From contig DJLT01000101.1 in assembly GCA_002435145.1 (NCBI GenBank), positions 1 to 43,172 of the forward strand: 43,172 nucleotides of DNA, in the 5' to 3' direction. The stretch is from Neptuniibacter sp. UBA6509 (GTDB lineage Bacteria; Pseudomonadota; Gammaproteobacteria; Pseudomonadales; Balneatricaceae). This document shows positions 19,449 through 38,130 of this stretch, in pieces (the first letter of the stretch is position 1; every line of letters starts with the position of its first letter). Made by a program: the position numbers and the translations under genes. The notes under the pieces were generated by a model that worked only from the letters and a program-made list of their open reading frames with translations, ran no database searches and was not told the DNA's origin.

Positions 19449-20390
19449 ATGGAAAGGCTCCCACCTCTTAACGCACTGCGTGTCTTTCAGATTGCGGCTG
19501 AGCAGGAAAGCTTTAAGCATGCATCTGAAAAGCTGCATGTCACACAAGCAGCCATTAGCCAGCAGATAAAACTGTTAGAAAAGTTTTTTGGTGAAAAGCT
19601 GTTTGTCCGCTTGAATCGCGAAGTTAAATTAACACCTTCCGCTGAGAGGTTATTACCTTATGTGCAGAAGGCCTTTCTGTTGCTAGAGGAGGGAAGTAAG
19701 AGTTTTGAGCAGGATCCATTTCCCCACCAATTAAAAATAACTTCGGTTCCTTCTTTTGCTGCACGTTGGTTAATCCCTCGGCTGGGTGATTTTCAAGCGT
19801 TACATCCTGATTTGACTAGTTTTGTTTCGACATCCTGCGATCTACATGATTTCTCCGATGATTCGCAAGATATAGCAATTCGTTTTAGTTCAGGTGGGTT
19901 TCCTGGATTAGAGGAAGAGGTGATCTGTAAAGATTATATAATGCCTCTATGCCATCCTATGCTTTTAGATAAAGTGACATCTATGAGATCAGGTTTGGCA
20001 ACAGAGTTACAAGAGCTTCCCCTATTAATCGATGAATCACCCGAGTTAGCGAGTGTTAGTCAGGCGTTTAAAGAGCTCTTTGGTCCGAAGAGTTCCATCG
20101 CTTTGCAGGTTGTTGATGCCAACCTGCTCATGGATGCTGCGCTAAATGGCCAAGGAATTGCCCCTATACGTTATAGTCTTGCATTTGAATTGATACAGCG
20201 TGGCCAATTGGTTTGCCCTTTAAATGTGTATTGGGATTCACCTTACACATACTTCCTTGTAGCGCCTGAACAACATTTTAGCCGCCCTAAGGTCGCTGCA
20301 TTTACCCACTGGCTTAAAGGTCAAATTGCGATTATTGAAGAGCAATGGTCGGAGTTTTCTAGTCAGACTAAGCTACGTAACATCAGTTAG
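19449..20390 (+). CDS. LysR-family transcriptional regulator, GcvA-like
   Basis: A 313-residue regulator beginning MERLPPLNALRVFQIAAEQES, the GcvA/AmpR/TrpI-type N-terminus. The helix-turn-helix is SFKHASEKLHVTQAAISQQI, followed by LLEKFFGEKLFVRLNREVKL. The effector domain shows the subgroup pattern SVPSFAARWLIPRLGDFQ, DIAIRFSSG and DANLLMDAALNGQGIA. The likely target is the divergent DUF1127 gene. The downstream neighbour is the transporter-like sensor kinase 295 bases away, but it has its own promoter-like elements. Confidence 0.92.
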   Translation: MERLPPLNALRVFQIAAEQESFKHASEKLHVTQAAISQQIKLLEKFFGEKLFVRLNREVKLTPSAERLLPYVQKAFLLLEEGSKSFEQDPFPHQLKITSVPSFAARWLIPRLGDFQALHPDLTSFVSTSCDLHDFSDDSQDIAIRFSSGGFPGLEEEVICKDYIMPLCHPMLLDKVTSMRSGLATELQELPLLIDESPELASVSQAFKELFGPKSSIALQVVDANLLMDAALNGQGIAPIRYSLAFELIQRGQLVCPLNVYWDSPYTYFLVAPEQHFSRPKVAAFTHWLKGQIAIIEEQWSEFSSQTKLRNIS

Positions 20391-20685: not shown

Positions 20686-23600
20686 ATGAGTGCTTCTCAA
20701 CGTATCTTAAAAGAACGCCGACACTACAATAAGTGGGTTGCAAACCAAACTTTAGAAGACTATGCGTTGCGATTTACCGCTGTGAACGGGCGTCATATGA
20801 GTATCGCTAAAGTAGGTATCACTGCACTAGGTGCGACCTCCTTTTTAGCGCTTGAAGGTTTAGCCGCAGTGGCAACACTGAGTTATGGTTTTACAAACAC
20901 TCTTTGGGCCATGTTGGCCGTTTGTTTAGTACTATTTTTCACTGGATTTCCAATTGCTTACCATTGCGCTAAGCATGGCTTGGATATAGATCTGCTGACA
21001 AGGGGGGCTGGCTTTGGTTATCTTGGTTCAACCATTACGTCTCTTATCTACGCCTCTTTTACGTTCATTTTCTTTGCTATTGAAGCCGCTATTTTGGCAT
21101 CGGCTTTCCATCTATTATTGGGTATTCCTCTTTTCATTGGTTATATCATTTGTGCTGTTGCCGTTATTCCTATTGTGACTCATGGTATTACCGCAATAAG
21201 TAAATTTCAGGTAAGTACACAGTTTGTTTGGTTGTTACTGCAGTGTTCTGCGTTGGCTGTAGTTTTAGTTTATGAATATGACAATTTAGCGGGCTGGACT
21301 AACTTTGTGTCCCCGCAGGCGCCAGCAGGTGGTGAATTTAATTTGGTACTGTTTGGTTCTGCGGTATCTATATTAATTGCGTTAGTCGCACAAATTGGAG
21401 AGCAGGCGGATTATTTGCGGTTTATGCCGCCTAAAACTGAACAGAATAAAAAGCGGTGGTGGTTTTGGTTGGTATTGTCTGGGCCCGGATGGGTTTGGGT
21501 GGGGCTGATCAAAATGTTGCTAGGCTCCTTTTTGGCCTACCTCGCTTTTACTCAGTTGATGCCGTTTGAACAAGCGACTAATCCAACGTATATGTATCAA
21601 CGCGTTTTTATGCAGTTAACTGAATCACCTGCATTCGCCTTAATATTGGCTGCGATTATGGTCATTCTGTGCCAGATGAAAATTAATGTAACTAACGCTT
21701 ATGCAGGTTCTATTGCGTGGTCTAATTTTTTCTCTAGATTGACGCATAGCCATCCAGGGCGTGTTGTCTGGTTGGTATTTAATGTGTCTATAGCGCTATT
21801 GTTAATGGAGCTTGGAATCTATCAGGCTTTGGAAGCAATATTGGGAAGCTTCGCTATTTTAGCTTTGGCTTGGCTAGGTTCTTTATCTGCTGATCTATTA
21901 ATTAATAAACCCTTGGGTTTAAGCCCTAAATTCATTGAATTTAAACGTGCACACCTTTATGACATTAATCCTGTTGGTTTAGGCTCAATGTTGATCTCGA
22001 CTGTACTTGGTATTTTGGCCTACCTAGGGGTAATGGGGGAAAGTGCCCAATACTTGTGCCACTTTGTTACATTACTGAGTTGTTTTATTTGTGTACCCGT
22101 GATCGCGTTACTAACAAAAGGGCGCTATTACATAGCAAGAGCGGCGTCAGATTTAAGCCCCTATTATCATGATTGTGACAATTCAACTCCATGCTCAAAA
22201 CCTTCGGTAACCTGTGGTATTTGTGAAAATGATTTTGAGCAAGAAGATATGAGTTATTGCCCTGCTTACCAGCAGCCAATCTGTTCTTTATGTTGCTCTT
22301 TAGATGTTCGCTGTCTTGATGGGTGCAAACCTAAGTCTGGAATATCGAGGCATTTTTTAAAGTTTTTATACGGTTTTCTTTCCAAAGGTTTTGTCCGTGG
22401 TCTTTATTCAAGGTTTGGCCGGTTTGTCGCTTTAGTTATAAGTGTTAATGGGCTGCTAGGTGCACTTTTACTGTTGATTTATACTCAAATGCAGCCAGCG
22501 AATATGTCAGAAGTTCTGTTGCTGGAAAAAACATTTATATCGCTTTTCGTTACGCTGTTTATTGCCTCAGGAATTGTTATTTGGGTTTTTCTTTTGGCCC
22601 ATGAGAGTCGAATTACTGCGCAGAAAGAGTCAAATAGGCAAAGTTTAAAGTTGATACGTGAGATTGATGCTCATGAGCAAACAGACCAAGAGTTACAGCA
22701 AGCAAAGGAATATGCGGAACGGGCCAATGAAGCTAAAAGCCGATATCTCACAGGCATCAGTCATGAACTTCGAACGCCATTGCAATCTATTTTGGGCTAC
22801 GCGCAATTACTCGGCGATAAGGAAAGCATGGCCGATGAACACAAACGAGGATTAAACATTATCCATCGTAGTGGTCAGTATTTAACGGATCTTATCGAAG
22901 GTCTGTTAGACATCTCTAAAATAGAAGCGGGTCGCTTAGACCTATATCGTAATCAGGTTCGGTTACCTGAGTTGATTGACCAGTTATCACAAATGTTCAC
23001 CGTACAAGCGAATCAAAAGCACTTGGTTTTAAATTGCCGGATTCATAATCCATTACCTGATGTTGTTATCGCTGATGAGAAAAGGTTGCGTCAAATCTTG
23101 ATAAACCTCTTATCTAATGCGGTTAAGTATACTCCTTCAGGCACGATTGATTTTGAGATATTTTATCGTAATCAGGTGGCAGAGTTTCGAATTACTGATA
23201 CGGGCCCGGGTATAGAAAAATCACAATTAGAACGTATTTTTGATCCATTTGAACGTGTCAGAAATAGAGACACTGCCAATCTCCCCGGTACGGGTTTGGG
23301 GCTAACCATTGTGAAACTATTAACCGAAATCATGGGGGGAGATTTACAGGTTGAGAGTGAATTAGGCAGTGGTTCAGAATTTAAAGTGAGTCTTTTACTT
23401 CCTTGGGTCGACGTTAGCACCATTGAAGAACCAAAGTTAAAAAGGGTCATAGGGTACGAGGGGCTGCAGCGGACAGTATGTATCGTTGATGATGATCCTG
23501 TGTTACGTGGTTTGTTGTCTGACCTATTAATACCTATCGGATTTAATACTGTTGAAGCGCATGATGCTCCAAGATGCCTGGAACTCGTTGAGCAAGTTCA

Positions 23601-24150
23601 TATAGATCTCTTTTTAATGGATATTTCGATGCCTGGAATGAGTGGGCTGGAATTAGTCCATAAGCTTCGAGAGCAGGGGAATGTAAAACCCGTCATTATG
23701 TTGTCAGCAGATGCCCATGAGTATAATAGGAAGGATGACTATCAAGCTGATTATGATGACTATTTAGTAAAACCTGTAAGTAATCATCAGCTTTTCGACA
23801 AAATTTCACAGTACTTAGAGCTGGAATGGATCTATCGGAATGAGATGAAAGGAGGGTTAAGTCAGCAGGGGCATTTAAGTAATGGTGTTCCGTCTATTCC
23901 TGTAATTGAGGCTAGTTCCTCTAATATGACTCCAAATCAATCCTTAGATTCCACGTTACCTAAGCACGCTCTTCTATTGGAATTAAAAGCCTATGCGCAA
24001 ATGGGATACCAAAAAGGGGTAAATGCGACCTTAAAACAGATTTTAAATGAGAACCTCTTGGATGAAAGCTCTTTCAGACAATTGGAACAATTGAGCCAAG
24101 GGTTTCAGTTTGAAAAATTAGCGCTACATATTGAGGCATATTCTGTATGA
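20686..24150 (+). CDS. Transporter-domain hybrid sensor histidine kinase with a Cys-rich linker and receiver
   Basis: A 1154-residue membrane receptor. Residues 1-490 form a complete transporter-like domain of about 12 helices (N-terminal NKWVANQTLEDYALRFT, then LLTRGAGFGYLGSTITSLIY), best read as NCS1/purine-cytosine permease-like and distinct from the SSS domain of CbrA/CrbS. Residues 497-547 carry a cysteine cluster (C503, 510, 513, 525, 533, 536, 537, 543, 547) with CxxC and CxxCC pairs, likely metal-binding. Two more helices (about 575-640) precede a linker helix, the H-box SHELRTPLQ with phospho-accepting H693, the N-box LINLLSNAVKYTPSG, G1 DTGPGIE and G2 GTGLGLTIVK. A receiver follows (VDDDP, phosphorylatable D979, KPVS), then a helical tail without an obvious HPt histidine. 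It overlaps the next gene in ATGA. The ligand is unknown; downstream urea genes suggest a nitrogenous solute. Confidence 0.9.
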   Translation: MSASQRILKERRHYNKWVANQTLEDYALRFTAVNGRHMSIAKVGITALGATSFLALEGLAAVATLSYGFTNTLWAMLAVCLVLFFTGFPIAYHCAKHGLDIDLLTRGAGFGYLGSTITSLIYASFTFIFFAIEAAILASAFHLLLGIPLFIGYIICAVAVIPIVTHGITAISKFQVSTQFVWLLLQCSALAVVLVYEYDNLAGWTNFVSPQAPAGGEFNLVLFGSAVSILIALVAQIGEQADYLRFMPPKTEQNKKRWWFWLVLSGPGWVWVGLIKMLLGSFLAYLAFTQLMPFEQATNPTYMYQRVFMQLTESPAFALILAAIMVILCQMKINVTNAYAGSIAWSNFFSRLTHSHPGRVVWLVFNVSIALLLMELGIYQALEAILGSFAILALAWLGSLSADLLINKPLGLSPKFIEFKRAHLYDINPVGLGSMLISTVLGILAYLGVMGESAQYLCHFVTLLSCFICVPVIALLTKGRYYIARAASDLSPYYHDCDNSTPCSKPSVTCGICENDFEQEDMSYCPAYQQPICSLCCSLDVRCLDGCKPKSGISRHFLKFLYGFLSKGFVRGLYSRFGRFVALVISVNGLLGALLLLIYTQMQPANMSEVLLLEKTFISLFVTLFIASGIVIWVFLLAHESRITAQKESNRQSLKLIREIDAHEQTDQELQQAKEYAERANEAKSRYLTGISHELRTPLQSILGYAQLLGDKESMADEHKRGLNIIHRSGQYLTDLIEGLLDISKIEAGRLDLYRNQVRLPELIDQLSQMFTVQANQKHLVLNCRIHNPLPDVVIADEKRLRQILINLLSNAVKYTPSGTIDFEIFYRNQVAEFRITDTGPGIEKSQLERIFDPFERVRNRDTANLPGTGLGLTIVKLLTEIMGGDLQVESELGSGSEFKVSLLLPWVDVSTIEEPKLKRVIGYEGLQRTVCIVDDDPVLRGLLSDLLIPIGFNTVEAHDAPRCLELVEQVHIDLFLMDISMPGMSGLELVHKLREQGNVKPVIMLSADAHEYNRKDDYQADYDDYLVKPVSNHQLFDKISQYLELEWIYRNEMKGGLSQQGHLSNGVPSIPVIEASSSNMTPNQSLDSTLPKHALLLELKAYAQMGYQKGVNATLKQILNENLLDESSFRQLEQLSQGFQFEKLALHIEAYSV

Positions 24151-25058
24151 ATACGGTTTTGGGTAAAGAGATTGTTTTAGTGGTTGATGACTCACCTGAT
24201 GCCCTTAGTTTGATTAATGATGCGCTTGAAGATGCGGGTATGGATGTATTGGTCGCGTTGGAAGGTAGGCAGGCTTTAACCATTGCCAAGCGTATAAGAC
24301 CTGACATTATTTTATTAGATGCCATCATGCCCAATATGGATGGTTTTGAAACTTGTCATGCACTTAAATCTGATCCTGCTTTAGCAACCATTCCAGTTAT
24401 TTTCATGACGGGGTTAACAGATACTGAGGATGTGGTTAAAGGTTTAGAGGTGGGTGGAGTTGATTATCTTACAAAACCGATTAACCCAAGTGAACTGCTT
24501 GCACGTATGAAAGTGCATCTCTCTAATGCACGTCAAGCTGTCAGTGTTGAGTCTGCTCTTGATAGTAGTGGTCAGCACTTAATTACTGTCAGTGCTGAAG
24601 GTCAGCTTTTATGGGGGACACCTCAAGCGTATGCGTTACTGGCAAAGGCCGAGATTGATCCTGAAACTCAAAAAACATTTCTTGCGCCTCAAATACATGC
24701 TTGGTTGTCTAGCTCGGGATTCATGCAAGATTCAAATTTAAAGCTTGTTCATCTCGATTATCCAATTGAATTGAAATTGGTAGATAAGCAGATGAATGGT
24801 GAGTATCTTATTCGCTTAATCGATGGCAATCGCTTATCGGGTGCTGCTTTGTTAAAAGTAAAGTTAGCGATAACAGATAGAGAATCTGAAGTGCTGCATT
24901 GGATTGCCAACGGAAAAACAAATCGTGAAATTGCAGAGATTCTAGAAATGAGCCCTCGTACCGTAAATAAACACCTAGAGCAGATTTTTCCTAAGCTTGG
25001 AGTCGAGAATAGGACCGCAGCAGCAGGGGTTGCGTTAAGAGTCATTACCTCTGATTGA
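24147..25058 (+). CDS. Response regulator: receiver plus LuxR-type DNA-binding domain
   Basis: A 303-residue regulator. The N-terminal receiver has the acidic pocket DD (14-15), phospho-acceptor D58 in LLDAIMPNMDGFE, the switch Thr in IFMTGL and Lys in LTKPINP. A middle region (about 125-230) resembles a helper domain found in other REC-LuxR proteins. The C-terminal LuxR helix-turn-helix is intact (ITDRESEVLHWIANGKTNRE, then IAEILEMSPRTVNKHLEQIF). It starts inside the stop of the kinase gene (ATGA), so the two are translationally coupled and form a two-component pair. The predicted output is transcription of the urea gene block. Confidence 0.93.
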   Translation: MNTVLGKEIVLVVDDSPDALSLINDALEDAGMDVLVALEGRQALTIAKRIRPDIILLDAIMPNMDGFETCHALKSDPALATIPVIFMTGLTDTEDVVKGLEVGGVDYLTKPINPSELLARMKVHLSNARQAVSVESALDSSGQHLITVSAEGQLLWGTPQAYALLAKAEIDPETQKTFLAPQIHAWLSSSGFMQDSNLKLVHLDYPIELKLVDKQMNGEYLIRLIDGNRLSGAALLKVKLAITDRESEVLHWIANGKTNREIAEILEMSPRTVNKHLEQIFPKLGVENRTAAAGVALRVITSD

Positions 25059-25511: not shown

Positions 25512-26936
25512 TTAGCTTGGTTTTGAGGCAGGTCGTTTACGGACACGTCTTACCGGCTTGCTTGCTGGTGATTGGTTTTGGCTTTGGCTTGTTTTCTTAG
25601 TTCGAGAACCATTTCCACCTGAAGCTGCTCGGCTACCACCACCTGATTTACTTGCTGAACGGTGAGATTTGTTTTTGCCTTGAGGCTTATGCCCACGGGC
25701 ATTATCTCCAGAGCGCTGGCCATCTTTATGACCAGAGCGTTGGTTTCTCTGTTTGGTCTTAATCTTACCCGGTTTACGGCTCAAGTCAGATGCTGGCAGT
25801 GTATGTACCGGCGTAAAACCTTCTAACTCCACTCGTTCAATAATTTTCCCGGTTAGGTATTCCACCGCCGCTAAATGTTCAAACTCATCAGCACAGACGA
25901 GAGAAACGGCTTCTCCGGTGGCGCCTGCACGACCAGTACGGCCAATGCGGTGTACATAATCTTCAGGGATGTTAGGTAGGTCAAAATTCACAACGTAAGG
26001 CAGCTGATCAATGTCGATACCGCGTGCTGCAATATCTGTCGCCACGAGTACTTTCACTGCACCGCTTTTAAAATCAGCTAACGCTTTAGTTCGTGCGCCT
26101 TGGCTTTTATTGCCATGAATAGCTGCCGCTGTAATCTTTGCCGCAGTAAGCTGTTTAGCGAGTCGATTGGCACCATGCTTAGTACGTGAGAATACAAGTA
26201 CCTGTTCCCAGCTATTATCTTTAATTAGCTTGATCAATGCCGCTGGCTTTTGGCCCTTATCAACGGGAGATATCCATTGTTTAACCGTGGTTGCAGTTGA
26301 GTTAACTGGGGTGACTGAAATTTCTACTGGGTTATTAACTAAGCCTTTAGCTAATGTGCGAATCTGCGGCGAAAATGTGGCAGAAAAAAGTAGGTTCTGA
26401 CGCTGCTTAGGCAGTACCTTGAGAATTTTCTTAATGTCATGAATAAAGCCCATATCTAACATACGATCGGCTTCATCGAGAACAAGTACTTCAAGTTGTG
26501 AAAATTTAACAACGCGCTGGTTGTATAGATCAAGCAAACGACCTGGCGTGGCTACTAGAATATCAACGCCACCACGCAGTTTGGCAATTTGTGGGTTGAT
26601 TTTCACTCCACCAAATACCACAGCTGAGCGTAGAGGTAGATTTGTAGAATAGTCACTTACACTTTCAGCGACTTGAGCGGCAAGTTCACGGGTCGGTGTA
26701 AGGATAAGAGCTCTAACTTGTCCGCCTTTTGATGGCGTACCGCCACTCAGACGTTCAAGTAGTGGTAGCGTAAAGCCCGCTGTTTTACCTGTGCCTGTTT
26801 GTGCTGCGGCCATTAAATCCTTGCCTTGGATAACGGCAGGAATTGCTTCTGCTTGGATCGGAGACGGTGTGTCGTAGCCTTTAGCGGTAATAGCGTCCAA
26901 TATTGGGCGAGATAAGCCCAGATCAGCGAAACTCAT
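25512..26936 (-). CDS. rhlE: RhlE-type DEAD-box RNA helicase
   Basis: A 474-residue ATP-dependent RNA helicase. Motifs in order: Q motif ([19 protein letters not shown], then PSPIQ), Walker A AQTGTGKT (45-52), PTRELA, GG, TPGRLLD, DEAD in [26 protein letters not shown] and [10 protein letters not shown]. The C-terminal 100 residues are a Lys/Arg/Ser/Gly/Gln-rich tail, typical of RhlE and probably RNA-binding. The start at 26936 begins MSFADLGL; an in-frame ATG 48 bases upstream adds an atypical extension. A long, hairpin-rich upstream stretch suggests post-transcriptional control. A diverged paralogue lies at 41350-42651. Confidence 0.93.
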
Positions 26937-27240
26937 GTGTTGTTCTCTATGTGGTGTATTTAGAAATACGATTAAAGCGCACACTTAGTTTAGCTAAGGT
27001 ACCGCTTATGAAGTACGTAATATCGATGTGAGGGAGGCCTGCACTCAGATTTAAGTCACGTAGGTAAATTTAGTTCCCTGAAGGCCTCTGTAAGAAATAG
27101 AGATTGCGCTTTGCACAACGCCAACAGGTCTACCTAGAGAATCATGAGAGTATCTATGGCTATTTGACTCGTTCGCCTAATCTTCGGAACGGGCCGATTG
27201 TATCATCGTTAACCTTAGAGGCCTAATAAGGATTACTTAA
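26937..27240 (-). other. Long, hairpin-prone upstream region of the RhlE gene
   Basis: Together with 27241-27440 this is a 504-base gene-free gap. On the minus strand a TACAAT -10-like box lies near 27208, giving a possible leader of about 260 bases. The leader would contain TTGTGC-AAA-GCGCAA, a six-pair stem with a three-base loop near 27103-27117, and a CTCT/AGAG stem beside it. AGGCCT occurs three times. Long leaders are common for cold-inducible helicase mRNAs; no named RNA family was recognised. Confidence 0.35.
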
Positions 27241-27294: not shown

Positions 27295-27310
27295 TACGTC
27301 AAATGACGTA
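27295..27310. promoter_or_regulatory. Perfect 7-2-7 palindrome upstream of urtA, likely response-regulator site
   Basis: TACGTCA-AA-TGACGTA is a perfect inverted repeat in the 7-2-7 arrangement used by NarL/LuxR-type response regulators. A third half-like TGCGTCA lies at 27317-27323. A TAATAG -10-like box at 27353-27358 has no good -35, and its start point near 27365 would place the palindrome centre at about -62, a classic activator position. The REC-LuxR protein encoded at 24147-25058 is the obvious candidate to bind it. Confidence 0.55.
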
Positions 27311-27440: not shown

Positions 27441-28721
27441 ATGAAACTTAAAAGTATCGCGGCAGGTGTTGCACTCTCATTAGGTGCTTCAGTTATCAGC
27501 ATCAGTGCAATGGCAGCTGAAACAATAAAAGTAGGTGTTCTACATTCACTATCTGGAACAATGGCGATCAGTGAAACAACGCTTAAAGATACTGTCCTTA
27601 TGATGGTTGAAGAACAGAATAAAAAAGGTGGACTACTAGGTAAACAGTTAGAAGCGGTTGTTGTTGACCCCGCGTCAAATTGGCCATTATTTGCTGAAAA
27701 AACACGAGAGCTACTTACCAAAGAAGAAGTGGATGTCATTTTTGGCTGCTGGACATCAGTATCACGTAAATCTGCGCTTCCTGTTTTAGAAGAGCTTAAT
27801 GGTTTGATGTTCTACCCAGTGCAGTATGAAGGTGAAGAGTCATCTAAAAACGTTTTCTATACAGGCGCAGCGCCAAACCAGCAGGCGATTCCTGCAGTTG
27901 ATTACTTAGCGAACGATCTAGAAGTTGAGCGTTGGGTTCTTGCCGGTACTGATTATGTTTACCCACGTACCACTAACAAGATTCTTGAAGCTTACCTTAA
28001 ATCAAAAGGTGTAGCTGCTGAAGATATCATGATCAACTATACGCCTTTTGGTCATTCTGATTGGCAGTCAATTGTTTCAGATATTAAAAAGTTTGGTAGT
28101 GAAGGTAAGAAGACTGCCGTTGTTTCTACAATCAACGGTGATGCAAACGTTCCTTTCTATAAAGAACTGGGTAACCAAGGTATCTCTTCTGAAGATATTC
28201 CAGTTGTTGCATTCTCTGTAGGTGAAGAAGAACTGTCAGGTCTAGATACTAAGCCACTTGTTGGTCATCTTGCTGCTTGGAACTATTTCCAGAGTGTTGA
28301 AAATGACGCTAACTCTGCATTTATCAAACAGTGGAAAGCTCATACTAGTGAAGAGCGTGTAACGAATGACCCAATGGAAGCCACTTATATTGGTTTTAAC
28401 ATGTGGGCTAATGCAGTAACTAAAGCGGGTACTACAGAGGTTGACGCTGTAGAACAGGCGATGATTGGACAGAAAACGCCTAACTTAACTGGCGGTGTTG
28501 CTGTGATGAATAAAAACCACCACTTGAGCAAGCCAGTTTTGATTGGTGAGATTCAAGATAACGGTCAGTTTGAGGTTGTTTGGGAAACCGATGGTGTTGT
28601 TGCAGGTGATGCGTGGTCTGATTTCTTACCAGGTTCTAAGAGCCTTGTTTCTGACTGGACGTCACCAACCAAGTGCGGCAACTACAATACTGAAACTAAA
28701 GAGTGTATCGCTGCTAAATAA
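27441..28721 (+). CDS. urtA: Urea ABC transporter substrate-binding protein UrtA
   Basis: A 426-residue periplasmic binding protein of the branched-chain amino acid/amide family specialised for urea. A signal peptide (MKLKSIAAGVALSLGASVIS, cleavage near AMAA) is followed by ETIKVGVLHSLSGTMAISE, the UrtA-typical FGCWTSVSRKSALPVLEE, LMFYPVQYEGEESSKNVFYT and GTDYVYPRTTNK. The ATG at 27441 has AGGGGAAGGG just upstream; the frame stays open another 53 codons upstream but that stretch is not UrtA-like. It heads urtABCDE. Two hairpins separate it from urtB, consistent with overproduction of the binding protein. Confidence 0.96.
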   Translation: MKLKSIAAGVALSLGASVISISAMAAETIKVGVLHSLSGTMAISETTLKDTVLMMVEEQNKKGGLLGKQLEAVVVDPASNWPLFAEKTRELLTKEEVDVIFGCWTSVSRKSALPVLEELNGLMFYPVQYEGEESSKNVFYTGAAPNQQAIPAVDYLANDLEVERWVLAGTDYVYPRTTNKILEAYLKSKGVAAEDIMINYTPFGHSDWQSIVSDIKKFGSEGKKTAVVSTINGDANVPFYKELGNQGISSEDIPVVAFSVGEEELSGLDTKPLVGHLAAWNYFQSVENDANSAFIKQWKAHTSEERVTNDPMEATYIGFNMWANAVTKAGTTEVDAVEQAMIGQKTPNLTGGVAVMNKNHHLSKPVLIGEIQDNGQFEVVWETDGVVAGDAWSDFLPGSKSLVSDWTSPTKCGNYNTETKECIAAK

Positions 28722-28876: not shown

Positions 28877-28944
28877 CCTGATTCGTTGGCGAATTGAAGC
28901 ATCTTCATTCATATATACCCAGCGGTCTACACAGGAGAATTCAC

Positions 28945-30621
28945 GTGAGACGTTTGTTAGCCATACTGTGCTGCTATGTTGTCGCGTCTATGGTTTCAGT
29001 TCAGGCCAACGAGCCTGTTGCTGCTATCAACGATAACAACGTTACACCTACGGTGCCGGCCTCGACCGAAATTACTCAGACTGAAGCTGATACGGTCTCA
29101 GTCGAAGGCCTTTTAGTAACCTTAACTAAGGTGAAACTGAGTAAGGCGCTACCGGTACTTAAACAGCTTGAAAAAGTCGGTGGAGCTCAGATCTTGCCAA
29201 TGTTTGAGAGCATGCTCGCCGGTGATCTTTACTTCGTTAAGTCGAGTAAAGAGGTCGTAGCAGTCACAAAAGTAAATGGTGAAATTACGGCTCAAGCGAT
29301 CTTAACTCAGCAGAGTTTAGGACAGCTGGATTCTTCACTTGTAAAAAAGATTCGTGTTAATAACAAACTACGTGGTTATTTAAGACAAGCGATTGCTCGT
29401 CTTCAGATCTCTAATAGCGATCCGGCAATACGCTTAGATGCGGTGAAAGCGTTACTTAAAAACCTAAGTGATGAGACCGTTGCGACGTTAACATCGGTGC
29501 GCCCGAATGAGGGTGATGAAGATGTCCTTTCGATGATTGATCTTGCATTAGCACTGAATCAATCTAATTCCGCTATAGCCCATGAACGATTGGCGGCTGT
29601 AAAAGTCCTTGCTGATAGTTTAGAAAACGAGGCACGTAACAAATTAACCAAACTAGCTGATAATGACAGTGATGCAAAAGTTAAGGCGGCTGCGAGTAAG
29701 GCGCTCAAAAGTATAAATCAGCGTATTGAATTTTATGGCTTCATAGATCAACTTTTTTTCGGCTTGAGCTTAGGCTCTGTGCTCCTTCTGGCGGCGATAG
29801 GTCTTGCGATTACTTTTGGTGTGATGGGGGTTATTAACATGGCCCACGGTGAGATGATCATGCTAGGAGCTTACACCACTTATGTTGTGCAGCTGATGAT
29901 GCCTAATGCAATCGAATACTCCTTATGGGTTGCGATTCCGATGGCTTTTCTTGTTTCTGGTTTAGTAGGCGTTCTTATTGAACGAGGTGTAATTCGACAC
30001 CTTCACGGGCGACCTTTAGAAACCTTGCTGGCTACATTTGGTATTAGTTTGATTCTTCAGCAACTAGTAAGAACCGTCTTTTCCCCGTTGAATCGTCAAG
30101 TAGCTTCTCCTGAATGGATCAGTGGCTCGTTAGAAATTAATCCTATTTTAAGTTTAACGTTGAACCGACTTTATATTTTAGCATTCGCACTTCTTGTGTT
30201 TGGTTTACTACTAATCGTTTTACGCAAAACCTCTTTAGGACTAAATGTACGTGCGGTGTCGCAGAACCGTGACATGGCTAAAGCAATGGGTATTAAAACC
30301 GATTGGGTTGATGCCATGACTTTTGGTTTGGGCTCGGGTATCGCGGGTATCGCGGGTGTTGCTTTAAGTCAGTTGACGAACGTGGGGCCTAACCTCGGCC
30401 AGGCATATATTATTGATTCCTTTATGGTTGTTGTTTTTGGTGGGGTCGGCAACCTTTGGGGAACTTTAGTTGCTGCGTTTTCTTTGGGGATCGCTAACAA
30501 ATTCCTTGAACCTGTTACCGGGGCTGTGCTGGCGAGTATTATTGTTCTTGTCTTTATTATCTTATTTATACAGAAACGTCCTAAGGGCTTATTCCCACAG
30601 AAAGGGAGGGCTGCAGAATGA
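28945..30621 (+). CDS. urtB: Urea ABC transporter permease UrtB with N-terminal extracytoplasmic domain
   Basis: A 558-residue protein. The start is a GTG at 28945 with AGGAG seven bases upstream; in-frame ATG 28894 lacks a ribosome site and would bury the signal sequence RRLLAILCCYVVASMVSVQA. Residues about 25-265 form a helical, HEAT-like region outside the membrane, characteristic of proteobacterial UrtB. The LivH-like permease follows: QLFFGLSLGSVLLLAAIGLA, VINMAHGEMIMLGAYTTY, ETLLATFGISLILQQL, the ATPase-contact loop VRAVSQNRDMAKAMGI, and VVFGGVGNLWGTLVAA. It ends in an ATGA overlap with urtC. Confidence 0.94.
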   Translation: MRRLLAILCCYVVASMVSVQANEPVAAINDNNVTPTVPASTEITQTEADTVSVEGLLVTLTKVKLSKALPVLKQLEKVGGAQILPMFESMLAGDLYFVKSSKEVVAVTKVNGEITAQAILTQQSLGQLDSSLVKKIRVNNKLRGYLRQAIARLQISNSDPAIRLDAVKALLKNLSDETVATLTSVRPNEGDEDVLSMIDLALALNQSNSAIAHERLAAVKVLADSLENEARNKLTKLADNDSDAKVKAAASKALKSINQRIEFYGFIDQLFFGLSLGSVLLLAAIGLAITFGVMGVINMAHGEMIMLGAYTTYVVQLMMPNAIEYSLWVAIPMAFLVSGLVGVLIERGVIRHLHGRPLETLLATFGISLILQQLVRTVFSPLNRQVASPEWISGSLEINPILSLTLNRLYILAFALLVFGLLLIVLRKTSLGLNVRAVSQNRDMAKAMGIKTDWVDAMTFGLGSGIAGIAGVALSQLTNVGPNLGQAYIIDSFMVVVFGGVGNLWGTLVAAFSLGIANKFLEPVTGAVLASIIVLVFIILFIQKRPKGLFPQKGRAAE

Positions 30622-31778
30622 ACCAGTTAATGCGTTTTAGCCGTTTACATGGCGACAGTAAAGTAGCGCCATTTGTTGCCATTTTGGTATTGGTGACGCT
30701 TCTTGCATCGATGGGTAATTTGTTGATGCCTCAAGACTCTATCTTTTATGTCAGTACTTATACGATCACGTTGTTAGGTAAGTACTTATGTTATGCAATG
30801 TTGGCGTTAGCTGTTGATGTGATTTGGGGTTACTGCGGAATATTAAGCCTAGGTCATGGTGCCTTCTTCGCACTGGGTGGCTATGCGATGGGCATGTACT
30901 TAATGCGCCAAATTGGAGATCGAGGCGTATATGGCAATCCAGATCTACCAGACTTTATGGTGTTCCTAAACTGGTCAGAACTTCCTTGGTTTTGGCAAGG
31001 GATGGATCAGTTTTGGTTTGCGATGATTATGGTATTACTGGTGCCTGGGATTTTAGCTTATGTTTTTGGTTGGTTAGCCTTTCGCTCTCGCGTAACAGGC
31101 GTCTACCTTTCAATCATGACTCAGGCACTCACTTATGCATTGATGCTCGCTTTTTTCCGTAATGAAATGGGGTTTGGTGGCAACAATGGTTTGACTGATT
31201 TTAAGGATATTGTTGGTTTTGATCTGCAAGCAGATACTACACGCGTTACCTTATTTGCCATCACTGCTTTGTTGTTGGCCGTGATACTCGTTGTCAGTCA
31301 TAAGATTTTGCAATCACGTACAGGTAAGGTGATTGTCGCTATTCGCGATGGTGAAAGCCGCGCACGTTTTATCGGTTATCGAACAGAACGTTTTAAAGTT
31401 TGGCTCTTTGTATACTCCGCGCTGATAGCCGGTATCGCTGGGGCTCTTTATGTTCCTCAAGTTGGCATTATTAACCCAGGTGAATTCTCTCCGTTAAATT
31501 CAATCGAGATGGTGATTTGGGTGGCTGTTGGAGGCCGTGGCACTCTGATAGGGGCCATAGTCGGTGCATTGTTAGTGAACTATGCGAAAACAAAATTCAC
31601 AGCGATTATGCCGGATGGTTGGTTGTTCGCATTAGGAGCGCTCTTTGTTTTTGTAACCCTGTATCTACCGCAAGGACTGATGGGGTTGTATAAAAACATT
31701 ATGGATAAGCGATGTGGGGGGAGCAGTGGTGATAAACCAAATGATGACGAACCTGCCTTGAAAGGAGGTGACGCATGA
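30618..31778 (+). CDS. urtC: Urea ABC transporter permease UrtC
   Basis: A 386-residue inner membrane protein of the LivM family and the second half of the urea channel with UrtB. Typical stretches are LSLGHGAFFALGGYAMGMYL, FRSRVTGVYLSIMTQALTYA, MGFGGNNGLTDF, the ATPase-contact segment VIVAIRDGESRARFIGY, and IEMVIWVAVGGRGTLIGAIV. The tail is a hydrophilic Asp/Gly/Lys-rich stretch. It is joined to both neighbours by ATGA overlaps, implying coupled translation. Confidence 0.95.
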   Translation: MNQLMRFSRLHGDSKVAPFVAILVLVTLLASMGNLLMPQDSIFYVSTYTITLLGKYLCYAMLALAVDVIWGYCGILSLGHGAFFALGGYAMGMYLMRQIGDRGVYGNPDLPDFMVFLNWSELPWFWQGMDQFWFAMIMVLLVPGILAYVFGWLAFRSRVTGVYLSIMTQALTYALMLAFFRNEMGFGGNNGLTDFKDIVGFDLQADTTRVTLFAITALLLAVILVVSHKILQSRTGKVIVAIRDGESRARFIGYRTERFKVWLFVYSALIAGIAGALYVPQVGIINPGEFSPLNSIEMVIWVAVGGRGTLIGAIVGALLVNYAKTKFTAIMPDGWLFALGALFVFVTLYLPQGLMGLYKNIMDKRCGGSSGDKPNDDEPALKGGDA

Positions 31779-32608
31779 GTACGTTAACTGATGTACGTGA
31801 AGTCATGCGAAGAGACCAAGTATGGTCGTTTTTAAAAAATGAACAGAAACAGGTCGATGTATCGCATGATGTGATTCTATATGTGGAAGGTCTTGATTTA
31901 AGCTTTGATGGGTTCAAAGCCTTAAATGATCTTAACCTTTATGTAAATGATGGCGAACTTAGGTGTTTAATCGGTGCTAACGGCGCGGGCAAAACAACCT
32001 TGATGGATGTTATTACGGGTAAGACTACGCCCGATTCTGGCAGTGTTTATTTTGGACAAAGTATCAACCTTTTAAAACATGATGAGGCGGCTATCGCTGA
32101 GTTGGGTATCGGCCGTAAATTTCAGAAACCAACAGTGTTTGAAGCGCATAGTGTGTTTGACAATTTGGAGCTTTCTCTTAAGCAGCAAAAAAGTGTCGTA
32201 CCTATGTTGTTTGCTCGTTTGACTCCGACAGAGATCGATAGGATTGATGAAGTGCTTAATATTATCGGTCTAAAAGAGCAGTGTTTTATGCAAGCGGGTG
32301 CGCTTTCTCATGGTCAGAAACAGTGGTTAGAGATAGGTATGCTGTTGGTAGCAGAGCCAAGACTACTGTTGATTGATGAACCTGTAGCAGGTATGACGGC
32401 TCAAGAAACTGAGCGTACAGCAGAGCTATTAACATCACTTGCTGGTGAACGTACGGTTATTGTCGTTGAACATGATATGGAGTTTGTTCGCAGCATTGCC
32501 CGAACGGTGACTGTTTTACACCAAGGATCAGTATTGGCTGAAGGCACTATGGATCAAGTTCAGAATAACCCTGATGTGATAGAAGTTTACTTGGGAGAAG
32601 CACCATGA
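31775..32608 (+). CDS. urtD: Urea ABC transporter ATPase UrtD
   Basis: A 277-residue LivG-like ATPase. Walker A is GANGAGKT (67-74), Walker B LLLIDEP, the signature is LSHGQ (His for Gly, usual in UrtD), and the switch His is in VVEHDME. An N-terminal extension of about 35 residues precedes the nucleotide-binding domain, as often in UrtD. It energises urea import with UrtE. It overlaps urtC and urtE by four bases each. Confidence 0.95.
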   Translation: MSTLTDVREVMRRDQVWSFLKNEQKQVDVSHDVILYVEGLDLSFDGFKALNDLNLYVNDGELRCLIGANGAGKTTLMDVITGKTTPDSGSVYFGQSINLLKHDEAAIAELGIGRKFQKPTVFEAHSVFDNLELSLKQQKSVVPMLFARLTPTEIDRIDEVLNIIGLKEQCFMQAGALSHGQKQWLEIGMLLVAEPRLLLIDEPVAGMTAQETERTAELLTSLAGERTVIVVEHDMEFVRSIARTVTVLHQGSVLAEGTMDQVQNNPDVIEVYLGEAP

Positions 32609-33300
32609 TCGATATATCAAAAGTTAATCAACGTTATGGTGGTACGCAGATACTTTGGGATCTGGATCTAGAGATAAAACCAGGTTCCTGTACCTGCATC
32701 ATGGGACGAAATGGTGTAGGAAAAACAACACTGCTCAAATGCCTCATGGGTTTACTCCCTGTAGAAAGCGGTGAAATTTTGTTGGAAGGTGAGCCATTGC
32801 ATACCAAAACTGCAGAATTTCGAGCGCCGGCGGGGATCGGTTATGTACCGCAGGGGAGAGATATTTTTCCAACATTAACGGTTGAAGAAAATTTGCGTAT
32901 TGGATTACCTATTCGAAAAGATAAATCCAAACAGATACCGGAGAAAATATTCGAACTATTCCCTGTTCTAAAGGAGATGCTGCATCGTCGCGGGGGAGAT
33001 CTTTCAGGTGGTCAGCAACAGCAGTTAGCAATTGGTCGTGCTTTGGTTATTGATCCGAAGGTTCTGATCTTAGATGAACCTAATGAAGGAATTCAGCCGA
33101 ACATCGTGCAGCAAATCGGGGATGTAATCTTAAAGTTGAATCAGGAAGAGGGTCTTACGGTTATTCTGGTTGAGCAAAAGCTGGGTTTTGCCCGCAGAGT
33201 AGGTAAAGAGTTTCGTTTAATGGAGAAGGGCAGAGTTGTTGCGAGTGATCAGATGGCTAACTTAAGTGAAGATTTGATTAAGCAATATTTAGCCGTCTGA
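32605..33300 (+). CDS. urtE: Urea ABC transporter ATPase UrtE
   Basis: A 231-residue LivF-like ATPase, partner of UrtD. Walker A is GRNGVGKT, the signature LSGGQQQQLAIGRAL, Walker B VLILDEPNEGIQP, and the switch region VILVEQKLGF. It starts in an ATGA overlap with urtD and is the last urt gene; ureD follows after about 120 bases. Confidence 0.95.
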   Translation: MIDISKVNQRYGGTQILWDLDLEIKPGSCTCIMGRNGVGKTTLLKCLMGLLPVESGEILLEGEPLHTKTAEFRAPAGIGYVPQGRDIFPTLTVEENLRIGLPIRKDKSKQIPEKIFELFPVLKEMLHRRGGDLSGGQQQQLAIGRALVIDPKVLILDEPNEGIQPNIVQQIGDVILKLNQEEGLTVILVEQKLGFARRVGKEFRLMEKGRVVASDQMANLSEDLIKQYLAV

Positions 33301-33419
33301 GGTGGTATTAAATATATTTTAATTAAAGGCCTTCTATGTTGCTAAGGAATTTAATAAGTTGGTGACTAGGAGGCTTGGTTGTCCAAGTCAATTAATTGAT
33401 GGTAACTAGTAGGATTGGG

Positions 33420-34346
33420 ATGAACAATCGGGTAACGCCTTTACCGCAAACAGGACCTATGAATACGGTCAAACAAGCGAAATGGGAAGCTGAATTAAGT
33501 TTAGGTCTTTCTAAAACGCTGAGGGGTTCAGTGCTAAAGCAGTGTCGCCATAAAGGCCCTCTTTATGTGCAAAAAGCGTTTTACCCAGAAGGAAAAAATT
33601 TAGCGCATATTTATCTGTTGCATCCTCCAGGTGGAATGGTATCTGGAGATGATCTTAAGATTAATGTCGATATGGAAAATGATGCGCAATCATTGATAAC
33701 TACCCCAGGCGCAGGGCGGGTTTATAAAGCTAGAGCTGACAGAACACTCCAGACCCAGCACATTCAACTGCGATTAGGCCCTGACAGTACTTTAGAGTGG
33801 CTCCCCTTAGAAAATATTATCTATCCCGGTGCAAATACCCAACTCAATACAGATATTCATCTAGAGAAAAATGCCTCAGTTATTGCATGGGAGATTAGTT
33901 GCTTGGGTTTGACTGCCAGCAATCAGCCATTCACTTCGGGTTCCCTCAGGCAGCGACTGCAAGTGTTTAAAGAAGGGCGCTTAACGTTGAGAGAGGCGCT
34001 TGTACTTAAACCAGACGAACATAATTTCATGTTGAGTAAAGCGGGTTTGGCTAATTGCTCCGTCAATGCCTTAATGATAGCGGGGCCATTTGATGTGGCT
34101 GAGCAGGAAAAGTCAGAGATTCTAGTTAAAGATTTACAAACGATTTGTGGTTTTTTAAATAGCCAATACAAAGAGATAGAACAAACTGTACTAGCGGCGA
34201 TTAGCCTAAACGGCGAATTTATACAAATTCGCTATCTGGGCAATTGTTCAGAGCAAGCAAGACTTCTTTTTATAGAATGCTGGGAAAAAATAAGGCCCCA
34301 GCTTATTGAGCGTAGTGCCTGTGAACCAAGAATTTGGGCTACCTAG
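33420..34346 (+). CDS. ureD: Urease accessory protein UreD
   Basis: A 308-residue scaffold for the UreD-UreF-UreG apo-urease activation complex. Family stretches include WEAELSLGLSKT, LLHPPGGMVSGDDLKI, TTPGAGRVYKA and LEWLPLENIIYPGA. The ATG at 33420 is preferred because AGGA (33411-33414) lies five bases before it; in-frame TTG 33396 and ATG 33399 are alternatives adding eight or seven residues. It heads the urease genes. The hairpin-forming TTGGTTGTCCAA upstream (about 33376-33387) has no T tract. Confidence 0.93.
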   Translation: MNNRVTPLPQTGPMNTVKQAKWEAELSLGLSKTLRGSVLKQCRHKGPLYVQKAFYPEGKNLAHIYLLHPPGGMVSGDDLKINVDMENDAQSLITTPGAGRVYKARADRTLQTQHIQLRLGPDSTLEWLPLENIIYPGANTQLNTDIHLEKNASVIAWEISCLGLTASNQPFTSGSLRQRLQVFKEGRLTLREALVLKPDEHNFMLSKAGLANCSVNALMIAGPFDVAEQEKSEILVKDLQTICGFLNSQYKEIEQTVLAAISLNGEFIQIRYLGNCSEQARLLFIECWEKIRPQLIERSACEPRIWAT

Positions 34347-34478
34347 TTTTATGATGCCTTCACAATAGATATAGAGCTCTCATCGGTGAATGAGGTTAAA
34401 GCAAATTATTTCAGCTAGTTAGATTTTAAAATAAACATAATTGAATCGCTTTTTAAAGCGCTAGCTAAGAGGTGAATT
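34347..34478. other. ureD-ureA spacer with stem-loop potential
   Basis: The 132-base gap holds CGCTTT-tt-AAAGCG just before the ureA ribosome site (AAGAGG). It also holds AGCTAG/CTAGCT elements about 45 bases apart that could pair around it. This may be a separate promoter and leader for ureABC. Nothing more specific is seen. Confidence 0.3.
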
Positions 34479-34781
34479 ATGGAATTGTTACCAAGAGAGA
34501 AAGATAAATTACTGGTTTTTACCGCCGCGTTATTAGCAGAAAGGCGTTTGAATCGTGGTTTGAAGCTGAACTATCCAGAAGCGATGGCGTTTATCTCTAT
34601 GGAGATTATCGAAGGCGCACGCGACGGTAAAACAGTTGCTGAGCTGATGAGCTACGGCAAAAACCTTCTCTCTGCAGAGCAGGTAATGGACGGCGTGCCT
34701 GAGCTTATTCATGAGGTACAAGTTGAGGCTACATTTCCTGATGGTACTAAGCTTGTCACTGTACACAACCCAATTAACTAG
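34479..34781 (+). CDS. ureA: Urease gamma subunit UreA
   Basis: A 100-residue small structural subunit. The sequence ([20 protein letters not shown], then [20 protein letters not shown]) is near-canonical and full length. It is preceded by AAGAGG. Together with UreB and UreC it forms the trimeric urease core that hydrolyses urea to ammonia and carbamate. Confidence 0.97.
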
Positions 34782-34809
34782 TCCCTGATATTGCTAAGAG
34801 GATAAGCCA

Positions 34810-35133
34810 ATGATTCCAGGTGAAATACAAGCAGCAGAAGGGGTAATCGAACTCAATGCAGGTCGAAAAATTCATACTCTAAGAGTAGAAAATAGCGGTG
34901 ACCGCCCTATTCAAGTGGGCTCTCATTACCATTTTTACGAAGTTAATCCTGCACTGGTTTTTGATCGTGATTCGACCAAAGGGTATAGGCTTAATATTGC
35001 ATCAGGAACCGCGGTACGTTTTGAGCCCGGTCAAGGCCGTGAGGTTGAGCTGGTGGAGTATGCGGGTAGCAAAACCATCTATGGGTTTCGTGGTGATGTG
35101 ATGGGACCTGTTGATACAGAGGGAGAAGGCTAA
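34810..35133 (+). CDS. ureB: Urease beta subunit UreB
   Basis: A 107-residue structural subunit with the family stretches [36 protein letters not shown] and [28 protein letters not shown] precedes the ATG. The stop overlaps the ureC start by one base (TAATG). Length is normal. Confidence 0.97.
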
Positions 35134-36854
35134 TGAGTGATTCTTCGAATAAAACAATGGATCGCACAAGTTATGCTCAAATGTTTGGGCCCACTACAGG
35201 TGATAAGGTCCGTTTAGGTGATACCGAACTTTGGATTCAAGTAGAAAAAGATTTTACGACCTACGGTGATGAGGTGAAGTTCGGCGGTGGTAAGGTCATT
35301 CGTGATGGTATGGGGCAAAGTCAATTAACCAATGATGTCGCTATGGATTTGGTGATTACTAATGCGCTTATTTTGGATCATTGGGGAATTGTTAAGGCGG
35401 ATATTGGTGTCAAAGAAGGGCGTATTGCCAAAATAGGTAAGGCTGGGAACCCTGATATACAAGACAATGTAGATATCGTGATTGGCCCCGGTACAGAGAT
35501 TATTGCCGGTGAAGGTTCTATTATTACCGCTGGTGGTATAGATGCTCACATTCACTTTATCTGTCCGCAGCAGATTGATGAAGCGCTTATGTCAGGTGTT
35601 ACGACCATGATTGGTGGAGGAACTGGCCCGGCGACAGGCACTAATGCAACAACTTGTACACCTGGCCCTTGGAATATAGGCAAAATGTTGCAAGCTACCG
35701 ATAATATGCCGATGAATCTGGGCTTTTTAGGTAAAGGAAATGCGAGTTTGCCGCAAGCTCTAGAAGAACAGTTAGAAGCGGGTGTGTGCGGTTTAAAATT
35801 ACATGAGGACTGGGGAACAACACCTGCATCGATCGATAACTGCTTAACTGTGGCAGAAAAGTATGACGTACAAGTAGCAATTCATACCGATACATTAAAC
35901 GAATCAGGTTTCGTAGATGACACCATTGGCGCATTTAAAGATCGCGTCATTCATACTTACCATACGGAAGGAGCCGGTGGTGGGCATGCACCCGATATTA
36001 TTCGAGCTTGCTCATATCCTAATGTGATGCCGTCTTCAACAAACCCTACACGTCCATTCACAGTGAATACCGTTGATGAGCATTTGGATATGTTGATGGT
36101 ATGTCATCACTTGGACAGCAATATACCTGAAGATGTTGCTTTTGCTGATTCTCGAATTCGTAAAGAGACAATTGCTGCCGAGGATATCTTTCACGATCGT
36201 GGTGCTTTTAGCATGATCTCATCCGACTCTCAGGCGATGGGACGTGTAGGAGAGGTCGTCACGCGCACATGGCAAACGGCTCATAAAATGAAGATCCAAT
36301 TTGGTTTGCTCGCAGAAGACCTTGAAATTGGAACGGATAACTTTCGAGCGAAGCGTTATATCTCTAAATACACAATCAATCCTGCAATCACGCATGGTAT
36401 CTCACATGAAGTGGGCTCTATCGAGGCGGGTAAACTAGCTGATTTAGTGCTTTGGAAACCTGCTTTCTTTGGTGTTAAGCCTTCGATGATCATCAAGGGA
36501 GGCATGATAGCCGCTGCACCAATGGGTGACCCTAATGCATCCATTCCAACACCACAGCCCGTGCACTACAGACCTATGTTTGGTTCATGCGGTTCGGCCC
36601 CGGCTAAAACGAGTGTCACTTTTGTGAGTCAGGCGGCATTGGACAACAATGTTGCTGAAAATTTAGGCTTACAGCGCCGGTTATCGGCTTGTCGAAATAC
36701 TCGTAATATCAGTAAATCAGATATGGTACTCAATGACTGGATGCCAGATATCACTGTGGACCCGCAAACCTATGAAGTGCGGGCGGATGGTGAAATGCTG
36801 ACTTGCGAACCAGCCGATAAATTGCCACTAGCGCAGTTGTATACCTTATTTTAA
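35133..36854 (+). CDS. ureC: Urease alpha (catalytic) subunit UreC
   Basis: A 573-residue nickel amidohydrolase. All active-site elements are present, offset by five from Klebsiella numbering: nickel ligands H139 and H141 (DAHIHF), bridging carbamylated lysine K222 (GLKLHEDWG), H251 ([12 protein letters not shown]) and H277 ([15 protein letters not shown]). The flap contains the catalytic His and Cys region [20 protein letters not shown], and the metal aspartate is in [12 protein letters not shown]. Nothing suggests inactivity. An alternative start at ATG 35157 would drop eight residues. Activity needs UreDEFG, all encoded here. Confidence 0.98.
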
Positions 36855-36898
36855 TTGGTGCTCTATTTTGATCGGTGCTCTAGGAGATTAAAATTCTC

Positions 36899-38081: not shown

Positions 38082-38130
38082 ATGTCAGTTTGACACGGCT
38101 TTAGCGAGATAAAATTGAGGTAAGTAAAAA

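Follow-up and report, generated by a model that had tools for sequence, protein, structure and literature searches.

The complete open reading frame (ORF) at positions 20686–24150, forward strand, of contig DJLT01000101.1 of Neptuniibacter sp. UBA6509 (GCA_002435145.1; the whole stretch of 43,172 nucleotides is called the window below) encodes a 1154-residue hybrid histidine kinase whose N-terminal transporter domain has the fold of the NCS1 family (TC 2.A.39) and not that of the SSS family. From the N- to the C-terminus, the protein consists of this 12-helix domain, a cysteine block, a two-helix hairpin, a kinase with H693 and a receiver with D979 (Table 1), and the gene of its partner, a response regulator with a LuxR-type output domain, starts at 24147 inside the kinase stop codon, giving a 4-nt overlap. 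We consider it likely, with a probability of about 0.72, that the protein is a transceptor-type NCS1 sensor kinase for urea or short amides, driving urt or fmd genes through the LuxR-type partner. An initial annotation made from the sequence alone had described the fusion, and its central observation is confirmed: the NCS1 type and the distinct linker held, a nitrogenous ligand is plausible, and the conserved cysteines proved to be eight, not nine. The paired receiver–LuxR gene, a predicted operator and an altered sodium site are additions to that annotation.

NCS1 fold and sodium site of the transporter domain

No direct profile match assigns the domain. Residues 1–655 had no transporter match in Pfam or NCBIfam and gave weak matches only, such as Cript (E 0.1–0.2) and MreC (0.17), and a PDB sequence search of the N-terminus returned no transporter. 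For NCS1, the Pfam profile PF02133 was not hit by the full window kinase (threshold E 1) or by any of 45 N-termini (threshold E 10), and the NCBIfam scan of the window N-terminus did not return TIGR00800. For SSS (PF00474), there was no Pfam match in the kinase, and the window kinase is absent from the PF00474 matches in G000. The NCS1 assignment is carried by a bridging homologue, by profile–profile scores and by structural matches to CodB and Mhp1. The bridge, L039, is a standalone 497-aa homologue (28% identity) from genome G043, one of the 293 genomes of the order; it passes PF02133 with 36.4 bits (cut-off 23.5) and stays below the TIGR00800 cut-off (59.4 against 353.1), and its sequence has a single PDB match, a synthetase. 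In hhalign, residues 1–490 of 74 relatives matched nine PF02133 proteins at E 1.2e-12 over 387 columns with L039 excluded, whereas the control comparison with 25 SSS proteins gave 0.03 over 153 columns. The superfamily background is not nil, since aligning the NCS1 set with the SSS set also gave E 1.2e-8. In a Foldseek search with an AlphaFold2 model, the five top PDB matches were CodB (7qoa, TMt 0.75–0.80) and Mhp1, and SSS proteins ranked lower. The approximately 12 NCS1-like helices of the initial annotation are borne out by these results, with NCS1 favoured over residues 1–490 and SSS not scoring. The L039 gene itself (L039:3949–5439) adjoins a tandem nitrilase-type gene and an AmiC-like binding protein gene and is a candidate NCS1-family amide transporter.

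Conservation was assessed in three sets that have some species in common. A1 comprises the window and 44 relatives from the order search (45 rows). A2 comprises the window and 73 of the 80 loci of a first set, itself kept from at least 590 matching stretches (74 rows; L076 and L096 were left out as incomplete, and L120, L128, L129, L135 and L137 as near-copies). The second set holds 57 kinase loci, 44 from outside the order (the partial G712 and the fragment G724 omitted) and 13 hand-picked within it; 42 of the 57 are under 90% identical to any A2 row, and 15 are at 90% or more. L222, L241 and L242 were fetched with the second set, contain no full kinase of this kind and were not counted.

In CodB, Na+ is held by the hydroxyls of Thr278 and Thr279 on TM8 (PMC9379551). 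We aligned Escherichia coli CodB to the kinase in 15 multiple alignments and in profile alignments with and without L039. The pairs Asn280–N334, Asn282–T336 and Tyr285–Y339 are stable across alignments; in all 15 multiple alignments, Arg216 and Tyr285 fall on R245 and Y339, and Gln105 and Trp108 on Thr126 and Phe129. The mapping of TM6 is uncertain by ~3 residues upstream of R245, and the Phe204 equivalent was left unassigned. At the position of Thr278–Thr279, K332–I333 stands in 12 of the 15 multiple alignments, C/S329–Q330 in two and A323–I324 in one. Profile alignments without L039 place K332–I333 there in six of seven cases, the seventh stopping short of the site, and all 14 with L039 place C329–Q330 there. 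Because the latter register requires a three-residue gap within a helix that the model draws unbroken, the ungapped register, with Lys332 at the sodium position, appears the likelier of the two, the choice being unsettled. K332 and I333 are invariant in the 74 rows, and the second set keeps K332 in 57/57 and I333 in 56/57 (Val in L215); at position 329, the 74 rows have 53 Ser, 20 Cys and one Ala. Either main register leaves at most one hydroxyl where CodB has two, and, judged by these alignments, the Na2 threonine pair of CodB is lost in the kinase family. The polar core of E57, T126, E133, Q236, E239, Q240, Q330, K332, N334 and N337 is invariant (74/74; second set 57/57). The window kinase shares with CodB and Mhp1 the fold, an alignable profile and the equivalents of CodB Arg216 and Tyr285, but lacks the Na2 threonine pair and is fused to a kinase. 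The Na2 residues are likewise not conserved in CbrA, which transports histidine by means of the proton gradient (PMC7918813).

Cysteine linker and signalling domains

Nine cysteines (503, 510, 513, 525, 533, 536, 537, 543 and 547) lie in the linker, as had been annotated, and the conserved set is smaller by one, C503 varying among relatives. The other eight are invariant in 45/45, 74/74 and 57/57 rows and form, from C510 to C547, the pattern C-x2-C-x11-C-x7-C-x2-CC-x5-C-x3-C. From its topology, the linker would be cytoplasmic. It has no Pfam or NCBIfam match above cut-off, which, together with the NCS1 fold, supports the earlier view that permease type and linker differ from those of CbrA and CrbS. 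A linker profile (A3) built from 56 of the 74 linkers gave weak zinc-finger matches (CCHC_BCL-11A 0.0015, zf_Tbcl_Rhp7 0.0044, Prok-RING_1 0.0087 and Cript 0.026), none over the Pfam cut-off where a cut-off was shown, and the PDB matches were chiefly short zinc-finger knuckles, also weak. The AlphaFold2 model (residues 1–665, 74-row alignment; pLDDT 83.4, pTM 0.85, cysteine block mostly 63–76) contains the transporter helices, the long hairpin helices and a linker drawn, with modest local confidence, as four short strands followed by a helix at the second C-x2-C. As modelled, the block fits a predicted treble-clef zinc finger, and its eight cysteine ligands would suit two zinc ions. Among 143 genomes of the class, the linker profile found 12 places in 11 genomes, 11 of the 12 ORFs being of kinase length (1007–1272 aa) and one of 661 aa; it matched only frames of this kinase type, the 661-aa frame being unassigned.

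All three Pfam domains of the C-terminal half are well over their cut-offs, and H693 and D979 were verified as the expected phosphoacceptor residues, in agreement with the initial annotation. The second membrane hairpin that it described is seen both in hydropathy and in the AlphaFold2 model, where the second helix continues into the helix leading to the kinase. No PAS domain was found in the Pfam scan of the kinase, and residues 490–682 hold no Pfam domain beyond the weak Cript match, no STAC model having been run by name. A by-eye look for a CbrX-like small ORF before the kinase gave none that was convincing.

Table 1 Coordinates of the kinase domains, the predicted operator and the neighbouring genes in the window
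Feature	Position	Strand	Basis
NCS1-type (CodB/Mhp1-like) 12-helix transporter domain, residues 1–490	20686–22155	+	Foldseek, hhalign, L039 bridge
Cysteine linker, residues 510–547; predicted treble-clef/RING-like zinc-binding module	22213–22326	+	Invariant Cys; strands and helix of the model
Second two-helix membrane hairpin, residues ~576–640	22411–22605	+	Hydropathy; model helices 576–602 and 607–664
HisKA dimerisation/phosphoacceptor domain, residues 683–749, H693	22732–22932	+	PF00512, E 1.3e-17
HATPase_c catalytic domain, residues 797–904	23074–23397	+	PF02518, E 7.1e-27; N, G1 and G2 box strings present
Receiver domain of the kinase, residues 931–1040, D979	23476–23805	+	PF00072, E 2.1e-24
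Partner response regulator, 303 aa, receiver (D58) and LuxR-type HTH	24147–25058	+	PF00072, PF00196
Predicted operator TACGTCAAATGACGTA	27295–27310	.	Perfect TACGTCA-NN-TGACGTA; last base 130 bp before urtA ATG
urtA, urea ABC transporter binding protein	27441–28721	+	TIGR03407 above cut-off; ATG at 27441, mechanical ORF starts earlier
urtB, urtC, urtD, urtE	28894–33300	+	UrtB by TIGR03409 above cut-off; urtC and urtD by order and homologues; UrtE by order only
Urease operon ureD, A, B, C, E, F, G	33396–38778	+	UreC, UreD, UreF by profile; ureA, B, E, G by order or eye

Parts of this architecture occur in other combinations. In L229 (885 aa) and L237, the NCS1 domain, the eight cysteines and the hairpin are joined to a shorter kinase, with FmdA in the stretch, and no homologue of the LuxR partner was found within the stretch fetched for either. 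The reverse case is L222:6857–8713 (G772), a 618-aa kinase–receiver relative that has the hairpin and the last cysteines, lacks the transporter domain and the first cysteines, and adjoins a convergent regulator-like gene. Since L229 and L237 have the transporter part on shorter kinases and L222 shows the reverse, transporter, linker and hairpin may act as one sensory module. By eye, L229 (8365–11022, reverse strand) has a different kinase core and an adjacent gene that is amidohydrolase-like.

A whole LeuT-fold transporter is likewise fused to a histidine kinase in CbrA, CrbS/MxtR and RpuS, and CrbS and RpuS likewise have a receiver as well as a LuxR-type partner (PMC5715377, PMC9100948). SLC5/STAC kinases combine an SSS transporter with STAC, a four-helical bundle (PMC13022988), and PAS, whereas the window kinase has an NCS1 domain and, in the model, the cysteine module and hairpin at the place of STAC and PAS; urea or amide gene neighbours also set its family apart from them. 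SLC5/STAC proteins were the only transporter-kinases noticed in the open-access literature searched. No functional description of this architecture, which would have refuted the initial annotation, was found there, subscription papers being largely outside the scope of the search.

Gene partners, distribution and predicted operator

Relatives of the kinase are present in 80 of the 293 genomes of the order (one, G039, as a short remnant) and, in a phylum search at E 1e-3, in 58 of 398 genomes, 52 with a long match and six with standalone, truncated or fragmentary matches only. At least 590 genome_contigs stretches encode a relative, and the 80 kept span gamma-, beta- and alphaproteobacteria; with such numbers the kinase ORF is no chance frame. 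Additionally, residues 1–655 match 532 plasmid records, 342 of them from Klebsiella, in which the labels for kinase and regulator are uninformative ('ATP-binding protein', 'response regulator'). On two Klebsiella pneumoniae plasmids (L275 and L276), the kinase and the divergently oriented formamidase–urtEDCBA genes are flanked on either side by transposase genes, and the L275 plasmid carries resistance genes further along. The S. meliloti genes SMb20609/SMb20610 are very probably a member pair; their position fits L277 (strain ABS7, pSymB), where kinase and regulator lie beside a dicarboxylate symporter gene, a kinase gene and dctD. SMb20609/SMb20610 were called functionally uncharacterised in 2025, and SMb20609 is described as being under PhaR control (PMC12542648).

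The regulator homologue lies directly 3' of the kinase in 72 of the 73 first-set loci with at least 400 nt downstream; in the exception, L079, the kinase frame is broken and the regulator lies beyond the break. Similarly, a regulator homologue was in the stretch at 55 of the 57 second-set loci. A divergent FmdD/UrtA-type gene lies within 3.5 kb upstream at 53 of the 69 loci whose upstream sequence spans 3 kb or more, and the 62 loci where it spans 9 kb or more contain FmdA (44), FmdB (44), FmdD (46), AmiE (23), UrtB-type (52), true UrtA (6) and UreC (3) genes. For formamidase, aliphatic amidase and the UrtA-, B-, C- and D-type subunits, a single representative was taken of each, and all passed their NCBIfam cut-offs. 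In the 11–20 kb stretches of the second set, 38 loci have amide genes, 19 urea genes and none neither (n = 57). By estimate, well under 5% of the genes in a 4-Mb genome have a urea cluster within 10 kb. The check for recurring urt/ure neighbours proposed in the initial annotation shows urea or amide genes at most homologues. In the tree, first-set urea-linked kinases stand at three separate places among amide-linked ones, although the L133 branch is long and its placement unsure. Scattered in this way, the urea-linked kinases suggest more than one switch of the target pathway between these two classes of C(=O)NH2 compounds. The kinase is also located at the amiE–fmd–urt cluster type in other Pseudomonas (first-set loci), and the P. 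veronii amiE-fmdA-fmdB-urtABCDE locus lacks amiC/amiR (PMC13209695). AmiC/AmiR antitermination likewise controls the use of short-chain amides, with different proteins and at a different level of control.

A palindrome connects the kinase with these genes. The motif was derived from 29 amide-type loci, about one per lineage and with the window excluded, using the intergenic region between their divergent genes; TACGTCA-NN-TGACGTA was the best half-dyad in 20 of the 29, against a maximum of 6–7 in shuffles. With up to three mismatches, it occurs within 450 nt of the kinase start at 39 of 75 loci, compared to 32 of 1600 stretches of 470 nt drawn at random from these loci with the true sites left in, and upstream of FmdD at 59 of 90 loci. 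The perfect site before urtA in the window is the only copy with no or one mismatch in the 3.88-Mb assembly. At up to two mismatches the assembly holds nine sites against 21 for the reversed control pattern, so such genome-wide sites are noise. The region upstream of urtA was examined, at up to two mismatches, in 90 of the 139 genomes matching at E 1e-140 (30 tool-supplied loci and 60 hand-picked), with the urea clade defined, by our own cut, as kinases at least 59% identical to the window kinase. The site is present in 18 of the 31 genomes with the kinase within 25.5 kb and in five of the seven whose urea-clade kinase lies farther away or on a different contig; it was found in none of the 35 genomes without the kinase and in none of the 17 with only a distant (<59% identical), unlinked kinase. 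Pooled, this gives 23 of 38 linked or urea-clade genomes against 0 of 52 others (Fisher 1e-11, relatedness ignored), and within the window's own family the site is present in 4/4 genomes with the kinase and 0/5 without (p 0.008). Recurring urea and amide genes, together with a predicted operator that ties the system to urtA, make the nitrogenous ligand of the initial annotation plausible.

Other features of the neighbourhood deserve mention. UrtC and UrtD pass their cut-offs in other loci, which is the basis for naming urtC and urtD here. The UrtB ORF (28894–30621) has an N-terminal extension of ~280 residues before the permease domain, with weak HEAT-repeat matches. A DEAD-box RNA helicase, RhlE-like by profile, is encoded at 25512–26984 and a second, recognized by eye only, at 41350–42651. 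Upstream of the kinase lies a GcvA-like LysR regulator gene (19449–20390); a 65%-identical one occurs in L059, and none was noticed just upstream in the other listed loci.

Proposed mechanism and alternative explanations

In the mechanism that we propose, a hybrid histidine kinase would have acquired an NCS1 transporter fold as its membrane sensor. Urea or a short-chain amide would most likely bind in the pocket between the bundle and hash domains, and the resulting conformational change would pass through the eight-cysteine, probably zinc-holding cytoplasmic module and the two-helix hairpin to the DHp helices. The kinase, which has its own receiver, would then phosphorylate the adjacent receiver–LuxR regulator. 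This regulator would bind TACGTCA-NN-TGACGTA before urtA in the window, or before fmdD in amide-type relatives, and, in the direction of switching that we infer, would activate the genes by which urea or amides are taken up and degraded.

Several observations weigh against this mechanism. No palindrome precedes the window's own kinase, and none was found before the kinase at up to three mismatches in other urea-clade loci. The site at up to two mismatches is missing before urtA in 15 of the 38 linked or urea-clade genomes, and Bradyrhizobium-type loci retain just its outer parts, TACG-N8-CGTA or near. Among 72 loci with at least 5 kb on one side, 11 have no FmdD, UrtA, UrtB, UreC or FmdA gene in the stretch, L136 among them having AmiE. 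A urea-versus-amide pocket signature also failed in the second set. In the first set (A2), each of the three urea-linked lineages has lost Trp177 and has Ser, Thr, Ala or Cys in place of Val401, two such positions against 0.033 expected under independence. In the second set, 12 of the 19 urea-linked kinases retain Trp177 and Val401, among them L204, L214, L217, L259, L260 and L261, which keep both alongside a true UrtA; the signature is bound to lineage and was rejected. Finally, the regulon could respond to nitrogen status and not to the ligand itself.

That last point leads to a rather unlikely alternative in which the kinase senses nitrogen status or another metabolite, such as ammonia or a nucleobase, with the urea and amide genes as output only. 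Urea ABC genes are often under nitrogen control. In addition, the two structurally solved NCS1 transporters take cytosine or hydantoins (PMC9379551). The gene partners, however, alternate between urea and amide pathways, which have the C(=O)NH2 group in common, nucleobase genes not having been searched for systematically. The palindrome might instead serve another urea or amide regulator, with the kinase–regulator pair merely linked to it; the motif is a putative site from computation alone, and the bare region before the window's own kinase agrees with such a view. We consider this very unlikely because the urtA site is confined, among the 90 genomes, to those with a linked or urea-clade kinase and persists in five of seven where that kinase is unlinked or on another contig, and LuxR-type CrbR also uses an inverted repeat (PMC5715377).

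The remaining alternatives concern the membrane part. The NCS1 domain may still transport its ligand, by proton coupling or facilitatively, while it signals, as CbrA does with histidine by means of the proton gradient despite its unconserved Na2 residues (PMC7918813). The whole fold is retained with an invariant polar core, the related standalone L039 lies beside nitrilase and AmiC-like genes, and one of the two registers leaves Ser at a Na2 position in most rows. Nonetheless, the typical locus already encodes a dedicated ABC importer, which would make a second importer redundant, and, should the likelier register hold, a fixed Lys at the Na2 position could lock the transporter into a sensor; continued transport is possible but not probable. 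It is quite unlikely that the cysteine module is the true sensor, of zinc, redox or nitrosative state, with the NCS1 domain as a permissive membrane part. Its eight cysteines are invariant in every row examined, and matches to the module among the 143 genomes were confined to this kinase type, but numerous NCS1 core residues are just as invariant, the neighbours belong to amide and urea metabolism and not to metal or redox functions, and the truncated L222 has lost the transporter and the first cysteines together.

The preferred reading, a urea or short-amide sensor kinase built on NCS1, can be extended in a form that we hold only tentatively. The family would be the first class of NCS1-built sensor kinases and a direct receptor for urea and short amides. 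The invariant Lys would occupy the former sodium position, and, with the driving sodium so replaced, ligand binding would be spent on signalling and not on transport. The relay would be an eight-cysteine zinc module found in no other protein, and the system would be the missing regulator of fmd, ami and urt genes across Pseudomonadota, Klebsiella plasmids included.

Fusions of transporters and kinases are rare and mechanistically open, and those met in the open-access literature are all of the SLC5/STAC type. A second transporter fold with another linker makes it possible to ask what is common in the conversion of a transporter to a receptor. For amide and urea clusters where amiC/amiR were not found, the pair is a candidate regulator, and a widespread, poorly labelled regulatory system thereby gains a testable ligand class, operator and regulon.

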